This document shows positions 4,838 to 55,601 of a stretch of DNA of 64,000 nucleotides, one piece after another. The position numbers were made by a program, and so were the translations under genes. Source of the stretch: Planctomycetota bacterium. GTDB lineage: Bacteria; Planctomycetota; Phycisphaerae; Sedimentisphaerales; Anaerobacaceae. The stretch is taken from contig DUZJ01000005.1 in NCBI GenBank assembly GCA_013349615.1, positions 1 to 64,000 of the forward strand. Direction: 5' to 3'. Each line of letters begins with the position of its first letter. Position 1 is the first letter of the stretch. Under the pieces are notes generated by a model. The model ran no database searches, was not told where the DNA came from, and saw only the letters and a list, made by a program, of their open reading frames with translations.

Positions 4838-4998
4838 ACCCCCAGCCGAAGACCGGGGCTAAATATAAAGACTACACCCCCGGCCGAAGACCGGGGCTAA
4901 ATATAAAGACTACACCCCCGGCCGAAGACCGGGGCTAAATACAACCCACTGCAGTGCAGTGGGCTAACAACCCCGCCAACAAGTGGCGGGGCTTCCGG
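4838..4998. repeat. Array of hairpin elements with 3' CTAA flank: three CCCCGG/CCGGGG units (38-bp period), one CCCACTGCAGTGCAGTGGG unit, one CCCCGCCA-acaag-TGGCGGGG unit
   Basis: Read directly; hairpins at 4840, 4878, 4916, 4945 and 4971. Confidence 0.9.
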
Positions 4999-5179
4999 TG
5001 ATACAATGTCAACGTTTTTGTATTGTTCCCTTCGGCTGCGCTCAGGGTAAACTCCCAAGCTCAGGATAAACTCAAGAGTGTATTTCAGAAGGTTTCCGAG
5101 CAGGTCTCACTTCGCTTCGCTTAGTGTAAACTCACCTGAAGAGGCAAAACGGTGCAAAACATCGCATTCTACCTTCTGA

Positions 5180-5276
5180 CCCCCAAATAAATTTGGGGGC
5201 TAAACAAACCCCGCCAACAAGTGGCGGGGCATCCGGCATGGAATAGAATTACGTACCCCCGGCATAAAGCCGGGGG
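5180..5276. repeat. Hairpin elements CCCCCAAAT-aa-ATTTGGGGG+CTAAACA, CCCCGCCA-acaag-TGGCGGGG, CCCCCGGC-ataaa-GCCGGGGG+CTTTTGG
   Basis: Perfect inverted repeats; the first two recur at 6173-6323. Confidence 0.9.
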
Positions 5277-5757
5277 CTTTTGGAGAAATGATGTCCGGTT
5301 TTTCTTCTTCGAGGACGATATCTTCGAGTTTAATGAGGTCCATGTGCCTGTCACAACTGTTCCGGAGGTGTATCTTTTCGGGCCTGTGGCCTTCAGCGTT
5401 TATTATGATATCGTATTCCTGCAGCCACATTCCTTCCTTTACGCCGCCGCTTGCGATGAGTCTTTCGAAGCGGAACCGGCCGTCTCCATCGGTAAACACA
5501 ATTTGGGCTTTGGCACGAGCCGGCTTCGTGCTGTTTTCTGAGTGGGCATCGAAAATGGCCAAGGGATGAGCACGGACCTGAACGGCCTTTATTGGCCGGC
5601 CCGCACTGTCTGTTACCCGGCCTATAACGTTCATCCGATTCGGGAAAACCATAGCCAGAAAGAACCAGCCGACGAGTAAAATGACGGCAAGCCCAACAAT
5701 TGCGATGCACACGAACGTGAGCACTGAGATGGCCTTTAATATCAAACGGCCTATCAT
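5200..5757 (-). CDS. Membrane-anchored protein with carboxypeptidase-regulatory-like (Ig-like) domain; C-terminus encoded by hairpin repeats
   Basis: N-terminal TM; VIGRVTDSAGRPIKAVQVRAHP...TDGDGRFRFERL; last ~27 codons lie in repeat DNA. Confidence 0.6.
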   Translation of the reverse strand: MIGRLILKAISVLTFVCIAIVGLAVILLVGWFFLAMVFPNRMNVIGRVTDSAGRPIKAVQVRAHPLAIFDAHSENSTKPARAKAQIVFTDGDGRFRFERLIASGGVKEGMWLQEYDIIINAEGHRPEKIHLRNSCDRHMDLIKLEDIVLEEEKPDIISPKAPGFMPGVRNSIPCRMPRHLLAGFV

Positions 5758-6019
5758 GCAATCGAATCCTTTCGTTAGCTATGGCGGCAAGCTAACCACG
5801 TAGCCATGCAAAACGCTACTTTCGGCTCAATTTTCCTATCTCATATTTCGTTGCACAGTTCACGATGTCCGCATCACTATCTCAGCTAAGATTTTCGGTG
5901 TGCATTGCACACGCTACCCCAGATTAAATAATGGTGGGGCAAGCCGCCACCCTACAATATATCTCATGGGGCAGGGAAGTAGAATAACATAAAAGAATGG
6001 GAAAGGGGAAGAAAAAAAA

Positions 6020-6331
6020 CATTGTATTCCTGTCGTGGGCACTCCGGGCCAAAGACCGGGAAAAAAATAAAGCACCCCCGGCCGAAGACCGGGGCTAAAT
6101 ATAAAGCCCTGACGGTGCCGGGAAATAACAAAAAAGAAAACCCACTGCAGTGCAGTGGGCTAACACTAACAACCCCGCCAACAAGTGGCGGGGCTTCCGG
6201 CGATACAATGTCAACGTTGTTGCATTGTTCCCTTCGGCCTTGCTCAGGGTAAACTCACCTGAAGAGGCAAAATGGTGCGAAACATCGCACCCTACAATCT
6301 GACCCCCAAATAAATTTGGGGGCTAAACAAC
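6020..6331. repeat. Second composite hairpin array, partial duplicate of 4780-5220
   Basis: Shares cattgtattcctgtcgtgggcactccgggcc, CCCCGG, CCCACTGCA, CCCCGCCA and CCCCCAAAT hairpins in similar order; adds GGTGCGA-aaca-TCGCACC+CTAC. Confidence 0.85.
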
Positions 6332-23134: not shown

Positions 23135-23160
23135 CCTGCGGTAAAACCGCAGGCTAAATA
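23135..23160. repeat. Hairpin CCTGCGG-taaaa-CCGCAGG+CTAAATA
   Basis: Perfect inverted repeat with the same 3' flank as the 4838-4940 array. Confidence 0.8.
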
Positions 23161-44405: not shown

Positions 44406-44428
44406 GAGCATACAACAGAGGGCAGGAG

Positions 44429-44669
44429 ATTGGGTTTGTTTGGGTTTGTATTGGGTTTGTTTTGGCATTTTATTGGCTTTAATTGGGTTTGATTGGGTTT
44501 GTATTGGGTTTGAATTGGGTTTGTTTTTCCCACGTTCACCAGGTGTCTTATCTTCGTAATCCCTTGATAATACCATATTTACGTTCATTTGGGCTTTTTG
44601 GAAATTGGGTTTGTTTTGCATAAAATGAGCGATTTGTAGTGCGCTCACTACATTTGTAGAGGAGAAATT
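44429..44669 (-). repeat. Dispersed repeat element A, copy 2
   Basis: Near-identical to 132-374. Confidence 0.9.
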
Positions 44670-44932
44670 CGTATCTCGATACGAAAAATACGAAATAAGA
44701 AGCACGAAATTCGAAACAATATCAAAATCTAAATTACCCAAATTCAAAACTTTGCCTTTCTTGCCAAATAATGATTTTTGGCGTGTCCCGCACCAAATAG
44801 GCTGCTGCCGTAATTTGGTGCCGGACGATACGTGCGGGTCTCCGCTATATCTGCCATTTCTATGGCTGTTTGTATTATACACAACTCGGCCGGAATGTTC
44901 AATAAAAATGTAACTTTTTTTGGAAAAATATT

Positions 44933-45016
44933 CACCACGAAGGCATCCGTCTTCGCTGGGCGATGCCAGCTTCGCCGGACAGGCTCCGGCACGAAGAAAA
45001 ATTAGACGCAGATTAG
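44933..45016. repeat. Dispersed repeat C, copy 2, interrupted by a ~45-bp GC-rich insertion
   Basis: ccacgaaggca-[tccgtcttcgctgggcgatgccagcttcgccggacaggctccgg]-cacgaag...ttagacgcagatt. Confidence 0.7.
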
Positions 45017-45130
45017 GGACAGACGCAAGATGCAAGACTCAAGATGCAAGGAACAAGAGCATAAGGCATAAGAGCATAAAGGATTAAACCAACAAAATGG
45101 GCGAAAAAGGTGTTTTATGAGTCAAGAAAA

Positions 45131-45190
45131 GGCACAAAATGCACAAAAGGGGCAAAAAAATGACCAAAAAAGTGCTTTTTAGCACATAAA
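45131..45190 (+). repeat. Dispersed repeat B, copy 2
   Basis: Matches 961-1021. Confidence 0.85.
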
Positions 45191-45207
45191 TAGCGATTTA
45201 AGCTTAA

Positions 45208-45308
45208 AATGCTCTATATGAAGGGCATATGCTCCATTGTAAGTATGCAATGCTCAATTTGAAGCATCGAATGCTCTATATTAAAAGTATATGCTCTATT
45301 TGCCCCGC
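45208..45308. repeat. Five degenerate 20-21-bp tandem repeats (AATGCTCTATATGAAGNNNNN)
   Basis: Units at 45208, 45229, 45249, 45270 and 45291. Confidence 0.8.
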
Positions 45309-45358
45309 TCATTCGCCGCGGGGGCTAGGGGAGAATATTATAACGGAGAATGCAGGTT

Positions 45359-46234
45359 TCAGGTCTTCTGCGTGGATTCAGCGTCATCGTCACTTTTCTC
45401 TGGGAAAGTTATGCCCTGATCTAAAATAGATTTGCCCGGGTCAGTTAGAGTCAACCCCCCGAGACCCGAGAGAAACGGGTACGACCTCCCCGATATGCTC
45501 AAGCCAGATGGATAATTCGCGTCAGACAAAGTAGATACCACCGTGCCAAGAAGAGATGAGCCAACTTTTGTTTGTTGAGATAAAATCTCTGACCTAAGTT
45601 CGCGGATTTTTGATTCTTTATTCTCTAACTGGTTCTTTAGTTGGGCGTTCTGCTCTGCTGAGCGGCTCTTCGTCTCTTTAATCTCCTTTTGTAGCCGCGC
45701 GAACTCTATCATTGTTTGATTCAACTGGTTTCGTAATTCGGTCAGTTCCCCAATTTGTGTTCGGACATTTGCCTCGGGAATAATATCCGTCCAATTCTCA
45801 ATGGAGTTGACCGCTTCCTCGGCTAAGCTGTCGCATTTAGATACGATTTCTTCATAATTACGAGTTGTTATGGCCTTTGGTGCTTTGGCTTGGTCTTTTA
45901 TATTATGCGTAAACATCCGTACACGTGTTCCTAACATAGCGATATTGTGCATAAGAAGCTTTAAATTTCGAATCGCAGTTTTTCCGCGTACAACCAAAAT
46001 TCCGGACTCAGTCTGTTCCAGCCACTGCTTCGTTAGTCTGGCACCCAGAATACCTGAGGAAACGATAAGCATCAGATTTAATAATGCCGAGTACACGGCT
46101 GGAGGAGGGGTTTGTTGTTTGCCCTGGCGCACCGAAATGACAAGGAGGATGCCTGTCGCTATTAGTAATATAACGATCCATGGATCAAGAATAGTATGAA
46201 GGAAGGCCTTCCAGTTTTCCTTTAGCGATTTCAT
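45359..46234 (-). CDS. Hypothetical membrane protein with two N-terminal TM helices and coiled coil
   Basis: DPWIVILLIATGILLVISVRQ; EFARLQKEIKETKSRSAEQNAQLKNQLENKESKIRELRSEILSQQ. Confidence 0.65.
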   Translation of the reverse strand: MKSLKENWKAFLHTILDPWIVILLIATGILLVISVRQGKQQTPPPAVYSALLNLMLIVSSGILGARLTKQWLEQTESGILVVRGKTAIRNLKLLMHNIAMLGTRVRMFTHNIKDQAKAPKAITTRNYEEIVSKCDSLAEEAVNSIENWTDIIPEANVRTQIGELTELRNQLNQTMIEFARLQKEIKETKSRSAEQNAQLKNQLENKESKIRELRSEILSQQTKVGSSLLGTVVSTLSDANYPSGLSISGRSYPFLSGLGGLTLTDPGKSILDQGITFPEKSDDDAESTQKT

Positions 46235-46526
46235 TTTTCTATCACTCCCCTAAATCAATCAATTAACTGTAAAACACCTGTACACACAATACGATCCGCA
46301 TATTCCCCAATCAAGCACTCAACAGCTCCGTTTCCCGTCTTTCTTTTCAAATTCCACCCATTCTGTCAAAAACCGCAAGGCCATTTTCGCCAAATAATAA
46401 ATACTATTCACCATTCACTAATCACGAATTAACTCGCCGTCTTAGTTGCTGGTCTACGTTGCTGATTTCTAATTATACCCTTTATGTCAAAAACGACAAG
46501 CCATTTTTGTTTTGTAAAGAGTTTGG

Positions 46527-47438
46527 TTATTCATCGAAATAATCGGTATCTATTTTCTTAACCTCATATGAGGCGGCTGTTGAAACTCCAACATTGTGCT
46601 CAATCATTAGTTGAGCCAATCTTTCACCATCTATGAGAATAATTTTATTTTCTATATTTGAGGCATAGTGAGTTGCTTCTTTTGAAAACGCTGAAGTTGT
46701 TATGAAAATACCTTTTTTAGCTCTCTGGCCCTGTAAGGCACCTGCAAATTTTTGAATTTCTGGACGACAGACAGCGTTTTCCCACCTTTTAGCTTGTATA
46801 TAAATCGCATCAAGTCCAAGTTTATCCTCTTTTATTATCCCATCGATACCTTCATCGCTACTCCTACCAACTGCCTGCCCCGCATCTTTTCTGGAACCAC
46901 CATACCCCATTTTTACCAGAAGATCAATTACCAAAATTTCGAAGAAGGTCGAAGAGCCATCTTTAACCTTCATTAATAATTCGTGTGACAAATTTTGATT
47001 CAACTCCTCATACGCAGTGCCCAAAAGTTCCTCAGGGGTTTGTACTTCAACCCCATTGAGATTTTTACTCAATTTCTTTCCGGTCTTTTTTTTCTTTAGA
47101 GTTTTAAATTCGTGGAATTCTGGGTACTGTTGAAGGAATTTATTGCCTATCTTATCTGGATTCTGATTTAAAACATCAATACCTCTTTGAGTAATCTTAA
47201 AATATCCACGTTTCGTGGATTCAAGAAGCCAACACTTTTTTAGGTAGGTCGCAGCCCATCCTGTCCTGTTTACAATTACTCGGATAGTTCCACTTGGCAA
47301 AAGTTGCTTTTGCTCTTGCTCAGTTAAGCCAAACTCCTTGATAAAAACCTCGGTTGCTTCTCTTGTACGATGCTCTTTTCCATCACTTGCAAGCTTTAAT
47401 AGTGGTAGCATTAAGGTTTCGTAATCTGGAATTGCCAT
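46527..47438 (-). CDS. mrr: Mrr-family restriction endonuclease
   Basis: Mrr N-terminal domain MAIPDYETLMLPLLKLASDGKEH; catalytic GIDGIIKEDKLGLDAIYIQAKRW; PEIQKFAGALQGQRAKKGIFITTSAFSKEA. Confidence 0.92.
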   Translation of the reverse strand: MAIPDYETLMLPLLKLASDGKEHRTREATEVFIKEFGLTEQEQKQLLPSGTIRVIVNRTGWAATYLKKCWLLESTKRGYFKITQRGIDVLNQNPDKIGNKFLQQYPEFHEFKTLKKKKTGKKLSKNLNGVEVQTPEELLGTAYEELNQNLSHELLMKVKDGSSTFFEILVIDLLVKMGYGGSRKDAGQAVGRSSDEGIDGIIKEDKLGLDAIYIQAKRWENAVCRPEIQKFAGALQGQRAKKGIFITTSAFSKEATHYASNIENKIILIDGERLAQLMIEHNVGVSTAASYEVKKIDTDYFDE

Positions 47439-47635
47439 ATAACTGCCTCCAAAAAGTAATTGCAAAAAACGCTTCCATATTTCATCCCACTATTATACCG
47501 AGTGCCTACGTCAACAATCAATAAATTTATAGCATTTTGAGAAAACCACACACAGACGGCGAATTTGAGGTGTATAGCGGTTTTTTTGGGTGAATGTAGG
47601 GGGCCGCTTTTAAGGGGTTTATTCTATGCTGTGCC

Positions 47636-47793
47636 AGATCCCTCCACTCCGCCCCGCACCAATTGCCCAGCACCAAAACGGCCCCGGTGCTTCTGTTTTG
47701 TGAAGCAAAACGGCGGGACGGCGGGACCGAAGCTCTTTTGGTGCTGGACTCGCCTAATTGGTGCGGGACTTCGGTCGGGATGACACTGGGGAT
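47636..47793. repeat. Nested multi-level inverted repeat
   Basis: Outer 47654-47664/47756-47767, middle 47668-47678/47736-47746, inner GTTTTG/CAAAAC 47695-47711. Confidence 0.85.
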
Positions 47794-47908
47794 GTGGCAT
47801 TGCTTCGGTCGGGATGACCCCAGTGGGATAACGCTTCGCTATCCCACGGGGCAGGCAGCGATGAATATCGAATATCGAACAAGGAATTTCGAATGATGAA
47901 GGAAAAGG

Positions 47909-47953
47909 GAGAAGTGAGAAGGCGATAAGTGAGAAGGCGATAAGTGAGAAGGG
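47909..47953. repeat. Three 15-bp tandem repeats (GATAAGTGAGAAGGC)
   Basis: Read directly. Confidence 0.85.
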
Positions 47954-47985
47954 TTGACAGATTTGATATTGGTTCTATTCGGTGG

Positions 47986-48054
47986 CAGATCCCTCGACTC
48001 CGCCCCCATGCTTTCTTGCGAAAGCAAGAACGGGGGCTTCGGTCGAAATGACAG
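47986..48054. repeat. Element with the same flanks as 47636-47793 but a different internal hairpin
   Basis: cagatccctcgactccgccccc-[atGCTTTCTTGcgaaagCAAGAAcgg]-gggcttcggtcgaaatgacag. Confidence 0.8.
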
Positions 48055-48061
48055 AAATAAT

Positions 48062-48083
48062 GGTGGGGCAAGCCCCACCCTAC
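48062..48083. repeat. Hairpin GGTGGGGC-aa-GCCCCACC+CTAC
   Basis: Perfect 8-bp stem with CTAC flank. Confidence 0.8.
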
Positions 48084-48190
48084 CGCCGGAAATGACAGCG
48101 ATGAATGTCGAATATCGAAGTGAAGGTGCGGGTTAGAATAGGCAAGATTTAGAAAATTAGGAGTGGTTCGGGTATATATGGTTCGGGTAA

Positions 48191-48214
48191 GGGCGGTTCG
48201 CGAACCGCCCCTAC
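48191..48214. repeat. Hairpin GGGCGGTTCGCGAACCGCCC+CTAC
   Basis: Identical to 55178, 55378 and 55578. Confidence 0.95.
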
Positions 48215-55177: not shown

Positions 55178-55601
55178 GGGCGGTTCGCGAACCGCCCCTA
55201 CGTCCAGGCTATACACAGCCATCTATATATTTAGACGTATTAACCATCTGACAGTTGACAGAAACGATACAATTTTATCCTATATTTCCCTCATTGTGGC
55301 CTAAGCTCGTTCTCAAAAAGTACTTAGGCAAGGTAAAAGTTCTGTAAAATATCAGCCAAACCTTTTGCACAGTGAACGGGCGGTTCGCGAACCGCCCCTA
55401 CATCCAGGCTATACACAGCCATCTATATATTTAGACGTATTAACCATCTGACAGTTGACAGAAACGATACAATTTTATCCAAGTTTCCCCTCATTTTGAC
55501 CTAAGAACATTGTCAAAAAGTACTTAGGTAAGGTAAAAGTTATGTAAAATAGCGCCCCAACCTTTTGCAAAGTGAACGGGCGGTTCGCGAACCGCCCCTA
55601 C
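55178..55601. repeat. Two 200-bp tandem units bounded by three identical hairpins
   Basis: GGGCGGTTCGCGAACCGCCCCTAC at 55178, 55378 and 55578. Confidence 0.95.

Follow-up and report, generated by a model that had tools for sequence, protein, structure and literature searches.

TTAG-tagged hairpins of a planctomycete genome as probable REP elements of a RAYT-type system in Phycisphaerae

Introduction

Repetitive extragenic palindromic (REP) elements have been described with the tags GTAG/GTGG and CGTC (PMC3733652, PMC3686654) and, in class 3, with CnGA (PMC6006769). In the GTAG/GTGG systems of E. coli, Pseudomonas, and Stenotrophomonas, the hairpins flank a gene for a Y1 HUH protein, the REP-associated tyrosine transposase (RAYT), and variable palindromes stand behind a fixed 5′ tetranucleotide (PMC3686654, PMC3733652, PMC8266576); for the GTAG REPs, co-evolution with the RAYTs has been established (PMC3686654). 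RAYT–REP recognition and the divergence of REP families are only partly known, from a few proteobacterial GTAG models. Here, we analyzed a stretch of 64,000 nucleotides (the window) of a Planctomycetota bacterium of the Sedimentisphaerales (GenBank assembly GCA_013349615.1, contig DUZJ01000005.1, positions 1 to 64,000), in which a preliminary description had noticed hairpins followed by CTAA or CTAC. Read on the minus strand, these hairpins carry TTAG or GTAG at the 5′ foot. The TTAG hairpins are very likely REPs that belong to a RAYT-type (TnpAREP-like) system found in Phycisphaerae.

This system resembles the GTAG/GTGG systems in its Y1 HUH gene, flanking hairpins, fixed 5′ tetranucleotide, and variable palindromes, and also in having several RAYT/REP pairs per genome and REP classes that outlast their RAYT. 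Perfect stems of 8–9 bp directly at the tag are shared with the Stenotrophomonas REPs. In contrast, the tag is TTAG (rarely ATAG or AAAG), the Y motif is YV..H instead of Y---NP, and a RAYT of the TTAG clade reached 30.5 bits against the NCBIfam model REP_Tyr_transpos (NF047646), below the cut-off of 80. Class 3 TnpAY1 of Planctomycetes and Acidobacteria (PMC6006769) has NHVH, W[TA], a conserved N-terminal extension, and planctomycete hosts in common with the TTAG clade, whereas its Y motif is YV[VI]xEQ and its atypical hairpin foot is CnGA. TnpA proteins of IS200/IS605 type (IS608, ISDra2) share the fold and the catalytic motifs; they are distinguished by the inverted end hairpins, the low copy identity, and the lack of an insertion sequence (IS) structure in the TTAG system. 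The CGTC-tagged REPs (PMC3733652) are likewise tagged dispersed palindromes, with another tag and no known transposase.

The word TTAG is absent from PMC3733652, PMC6006769, and PMC8266576, and no paper joining TTAG with TnpAREP surfaced in a limited literature search. The novelty lies in the tag, in the RAYT clade and its breadth within a single bacterial order, and in the tag switches that go with residue changes. Within the clade, 97 RAYT-like genes occur naturally, most of them close to a REP. They unite a guide other than GTAG with perfect stems, loops that match, and several switches of the guide, making the recognition code of guide and hairpin directly testable. REP/RAYT systems are thus common in the Sedimentisphaerales and their relatives, a group that is for the most part uncultured.

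RAYT genes of the host genome

The host genome assembly (G000; 3.77 Mb, 157 contigs, 80% complete) contained Y1_Tnp genes on contigs C40 (IS200-type), C33, and C22. A search with the C22 protein revealed further genes on C48 and C38 (the latter with one stop), as well as pieces on C36 and at the end of C5, the contig of the window. The RAYT gene on C22 (L003, C22:44810-45265) is flanked on both sides, within about 50 bp, by TTAGCCCCCAAATTTATTTGGGGG, namely REPs with the stem CCCCCAAA and the loop ttta. These REPs are identical to those starting at 5180 and 6303 in the window, indicating a cognate pair in the host genome. The same CCCCCAAA.ttta hairpin was found at 11 or more places in G000, showing that the L003-type hairpin is dispersed.

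The piece on C5 is the start of a gene cut off by the contig end. Because the last 123 bases of C5 are identical to the end of C48, the C48 gene is very probably located on the same replicon as the window, 10.7 kb past its end. This gene belongs to a clade with ATAG REPs, and ATAG REPs stand just upstream of the gene start on C5. Downstream of the C38 gene, there are CCCACCGG.tttat hairpins with the tag GAAAG, and the C33 gene encodes a different RAYT, located between hairpins of the form GTTTAGC plus a GTCGCCG-type stem. On one side of the C33 gene, a tandem array of 41-bp units, each with a GTCGCCG-type TTAG-C hairpin, occupies the start of the contig (L002:1-230).

A score of 26.4 bits against Pfam Y1_Tnp was above the cut-off of 23. 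In the proteins, the HxH motif and the Tyr are invariant (H85, H87, and Y143 in A2), and the TTAG clade has the motifs NHVH, WT, and YV..H. An AlphaFold model of a relative (predicted local distance difference test score, pLDDT, 84) matched the E. coli RAYT–REP complex 4er8 with a template modeling (TM) score of 0.60 and a root-mean-square deviation of 2.9 Å. By E-value, the best Foldseek matches of this model were ISDra2 and IS200/IS608-type TnpA, and sequence searches of the PDB gave only IS200/IS605-type TnpAs as credible matches. Moreover, an IS200-type TnpA does exist in the genome: the C40 protein (L001) scored 84.7 bits against NF033573, over the cut-off. The hairpins could therefore be read as the ends of IS200/IS605-type insertion sequences, with the Y1 gene as an active IS transposase. 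The end hairpins of IS200/IS605 elements lie on one strand. However, the hairpins beside the RAYT genes are inverted, with both tags pointing to the gene; L003 shares only 45–49% identity with the other full-length copies of the genome; and L003 reached 22.5 bits against NF033573, below the cut-off of 55. On these three grounds, IS ends were rejected as a very improbable explanation.

Hairpins around RAYT genes of relatives

We then considered 108 nonredundant RAYT-like genes, 97 of which, nearly all of them from Phycisphaerae, fell in the TTAG clade and 11 outside. The close relatives came from Planctomycetota metagenome-assembled genomes, mostly Phycisphaerae and Sedimentisphaerales, with a few records under other names. 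The Y1/RAYT transposases that the preliminary description had proposed to look for across the genome were thus found, as RAYT-like, hairpin-bracketed genes in the host genome and in many relatives. When hairpins were collected de novo, without assuming a tag, the gene-facing tetramer was TTAG at 107 of the 187 GC-rich hairpins within 150 bp of a gene, and no other tetramer exceeded 10; CTGA, which would fit the CnGA foot of class 3, occurred once. Outward-pointing TTAGC words, taken without preselecting hairpins, started a stem of at least 7 bp in 121 of 161 cases within 120 bp of a RAYT, compared with 7 of 40 further away and 0 of 33 inside RAYT genes. With TAG required, 154 REPs faced the gene and 31 did not, and 51 genes had facing REPs on both sides, in an inverted arrangement with the tag inwards. 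Perfect REPs beside RAYTs carried TTAG in 81 of 84 cases and ATAG in 3; GTAG was seen in none of the 84, so the GT[AG]G tag of the described systems was not found here. Of 20 further loci, most were already among those analyzed; of the additional ones, L319, L322, and L329 combined TTAG with the residues DKR discussed below, and L330 and L331 (about 35% identity) had no TTAG.

In the tree, rows with the class 3 Y motif formed the sister group of the TTAG clade (branch support 100), and YVxxEQ was present in the sister rows L078 and L113. Distant class-3-like Y1 domains were also noticed inside open frames of 1200–1700 aa (G145:C11, G245:C82, G120:C157, and others), which could represent fusions or simply long open frames.

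Ordinary intrinsic (rho-independent) terminators, with a flank due to chance or terminator context, would also give GC-rich hairpins beside genes. GC-rich 8-bp stems are compatible with terminators, and the outer side of the RAYT-adjacent hairpins is often T-rich (outward tetramer AAAA at 22 of 188). However, TTAG is constant at just one foot of the hairpin and points to the gene from both the upstream and the downstream side, and this asymmetry weakens the terminator reading. In addition, the dispersed CCCCCAAA copies in the host genome end in TCA with no T run, the same arm and loop recur beside RAYTs in other genomes, and the pairs around one gene match. Terminators as the main explanation were therefore rejected, and we give them hardly any weight.

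Co-divergence of RAYTs and REPs

Upstream and downstream REPs of the same gene agreed in stem and loop length at a rate of 0.80, compared with 0.15 after permutation. Similarly, the loop identity of such pairs was 0.75 (permuted, 0.31) and the arm identity 0.73 (permuted, 0.54); none of 2000 permutations reached any of these three values. Mantel tests of RAYT protein distance gave r = −0.41 with loop identity (0 of 2000) and r = −0.24 with arm identity. On the RAYT tree, loops changed 44 times, arms 58 times, and tags 5 times, where the minima among 100 shuffles were 59, 66, and 6, respectively. Several loops were owned by clades, among others ttt, cctg, acctgtg, tttat, and cttg. The matched pairs, the Mantel correlations, and the tree changes therefore indicate that the tag is steady, while the stem tip and loop change along with the protein.

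Enrichment in the host genome

Enrichment was calculated on 1.28 Mb of the host genome, taken as stretches. After stems of at least 8 bp, CTAA was found 14 times (1.08 expected; 8 distinct arms against 0.37) and CTAC 22 times (0.96 expected; 5 distinct arms against 0.33), and a first-order Markov simulation gave 0 and 1, respectively. The reversed tag, TTAG 3′ of the stem, occurred once, with 1.08 expected. CTAT was also enriched (8 against 1.53), which is partly due to an ATAG-tagged subfamily. A search for NTAG followed by a hairpin yielded 28 TTAG, 36 GTAG, and 25 ATAG hits, compared with 6, 5, and 8 in simulation. The hairpins with a 3′ CTAA/CTAC flank are thus real, with the tag on one side, and both the flank enrichment and the strand asymmetry on which the preliminary description had staked its reading are present.

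Its further statement, that base pairing is kept while stems diversify freely behind a fixed guide, required revision. The stems do vary, and several pair types, mostly standard pairs, were seen at middle stem positions, where the geometry had been fitted. Nevertheless, the stems keep to 7–9 bp with mostly C-G pairs at the start, stem and loop are particular to each RAYT lineage, and the mostly steady guide sometimes switches to ATAG or AAAG.

Proposed mechanism and opposing points

We propose that a small HUH/Tyr (Y1) single-strand DNA transposase would recognize a one-strand hairpin of 7–9 bp by its clade-specific loop and stem tip, and would also read the 5′ guide TTAG at the hairpin foot, perhaps through the residues at W+5/+6. 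Single-stranded DNA would then be cut and rejoined next to the hairpin, scattering copies. Around its gene, each RAYT lineage has a separate pair of inverted hairpins with the tags toward the gene, and it would have seeded the dispersed copies; stem and loop drift together with the protein, whereas the guide is mostly retained.

Several points weigh against assigning the TTAG hairpins to a RAYT-type system. Cleavage, strand transfer, and transposition by RAYTs of the TTAG clade are predicted from sequence. The tests on same-gene pairs, Mantel correlations, NTAG counts, facing, and tree changes all start from TAG-pattern hairpins, and the RAYT tree was built from 149 columns, with many forks unresolved. 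By the rule of our script, about 20% of all loci had no TTAG/ATAG REP, for reasons such as contig ends, other tags, or a position outside the clade. The copy number is modest, since the 28 TTAG hairpins counted above include chance ones. Finally, for the TTAG REPs, genus-mate comparisons revealed only coarser differences and not a single exact empty site; the REP at 23135 was absent in four genus-mates, with one flank alone aligning.

A candidate guide code

The guide-contact region of E. coli RAYT includes W94, Q95, E100, H101, and R104 (PMC6006769), and positions W+5/+6 fall where this protein touches its guide. Counted from the conserved W, positions W+5 to W+7 read DKR in 61 of 72 TTAG genes, DRR (4) or NTK (1) in ATAG genes, and SVR (2) or SKR (1) in AAAG genes. 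Among the columns conserved in TTAG genes, W+6 (K131 of L003) showed the strongest association with the tag, followed by W+5. K stood at W+6 in 66 of 69 TTAG rows, the residue being changed in 3 of 69 TTAG rows compared with 7 of 8 rows with ATAG or AAAG (Fisher p = 4e-7, without correction for phylogeny). The C48 gene did not enter the association, as no REP had been scored next to it. It reads DRR, and ATAG REPs stand on the other side of the contig join, in agreement with the prediction.

A tentative model, which we hold to be possible and would not yet favor, is that guide and hairpin recognition in the TTAG-guided clade are separate modules. W+5/+6 would read the first guide bases (DK for TTAG, DR for ATAG, and S at +5 for AAAG), and loop and stem tip would be read by another surface. 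The clade would then form a naturally re-addressable family of single-strand nucleases. Since the tag/residue link comprises only two independent pairs on supported branches, so that a sign test cannot reach 0.05, the guide code is put forward as a hypothesis; this point, too, belongs with those listed above.

GTAG hairpins as a second family

The preliminary description treated the CTAA and CTAC hairpins as one REP-like system. A single guide with G/T freedom would account for the 7–8 bp hairpins of both families, the NTAG at their 5′ foot, and their joint presence in the cluster at 4838–6331. However, the sole GTAG call beside TTAG-clade RAYTs has an unrelated AT-rich stem, and the GTAG hairpins have G-starting stems, often with GTAC/GTAA at the far foot. 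No GTAG-flanked gene was found among the Y1 genes of the 80% complete host genome. The GTAG REP GTAGGGGCGGTTCGCGAACCGCCC (stem GGGCGGTT) has 48 exact copies in the host genome, which agrees with the dispersed GTAG-tagged palindromes of 6–13 bp in PMC3733652; four genus-mates have no copy or a single one each, and G041, a member of another family, has 5. The single-system reading is therefore unlikely and was rejected; a fixed guide tetranucleotide with diversifying stems holds, and CTAA and CTAC mark two REP families.

Insertion polymorphism, which the preliminary description had suggested examining, was seen for the GTAG family, with coarser differences for the TTAG REPs. GTAG REPs were missing from the aligned loci of genus-mates at window 55178 (in G003 and G004) and at L011:12767, 13585, and 18855; the flanks align on both sides at L011:13585, and the edges are less clean at the other sites. 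Together with the copy numbers, these sites indicate that GTAG REPs were spread or lost recently. At 55178–55601, three GTAG REPs lie in a 200-bp tandem duplication; in the aligned genus-mates, the unit is present once and contains no REP. A segment of about 3.8 kb (44407–48210) is missing in G001, G002, and G004, where its flanks are adjacent, and the GTAG REP at 48191–48214 marks the right edge of the segment.

Hairpins of the window

All hairpins named in the preliminary description were present. The window contains nine TTAG-tagged hairpins, eight of them within 4838–6331, and six GTAG-tagged ones, every one on the minus strand when read with the tag 5′. Stems measure 7–9 bp and begin with four pairs that are mostly C-G; variation lies in the distal half and the loop. 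CCCCGG-type stems were found in the TTAG REPs at 4840–4862 (CCCCGG(TC)-type, one mismatch), 4878–4900, 4916–4938, and 6076–6098. Those at 4945–4967 and 6141–6163 have the stem CCCACTGC and the loop act; the loop and stem tip of the former resemble REPs of the L101/L106/L187 RAYT clade. The L003-type REPs occupy 5180–5203 and 6303–6326. The open reading frame at 5200–5757 has REPs on one side here, on the other side in G001, and none in G002, with inexact edges. The ninth TTAG REP (23135–23157; stem CCTGCGGT, loop ttt) shares its arm and loop with REPs beside the RAYTs L093, L154, L163, L175, and L193 of other genomes, and beside L201 of another genome, where the tag is ATAG.

Four more minus-strand hairpins of the same style lie in the cluster without TTAG. 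Three are CCCCGCCA.cttgt hairpins, with the variant tag GGAAG at 4971–4995 and 6173–6197 and GGATG at 5209–5233; the fourth, CCCCCGGC.tttat at 5256–5280, is tagged AAAAG and has a GAAAG-tagged equivalent in the genus-mate L258. The GTAG REPs are located at 6274–6295 (stem GGTGCGA, loop tgtt), 48062–48083 (GGTGGGG, cttg), and 48191–48214 (GGGCGGTT, cgcg), and the tandem holds GGGCGGTT at 55178–55201, 55378–55401, and 55578–55601. In the window cluster, several REP types form a mosaic, and for some of these no RAYT was found in the 80% complete host genome. In 28 of 36 REPs, the tag-bearing strand was locally C-rich, with tiny skews and clustered REPs; this bias fits a lagging-strand preference and is only suggestive.

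Other repeats were also observed. A hairpin family of the form ATTCCCGC..GCGGGAAT followed by GACA occurs at 465–484 and elsewhere in G000, and GACA after stems of at least 8 bp was counted 22 times against 1.95 expected. A dispersed repeat of about 245 bp, located at 130–377 and 44426–44673 and often at contig ends, has dozens of copies in the host genome (about 90–98% identity) and is also present in each genus-mate (about 75–88%). With the hairpin TGTAGTGcgctCACTACA in or beside it, this repeat is possibly a miniature inverted-repeat transposable element or a structured RNA.
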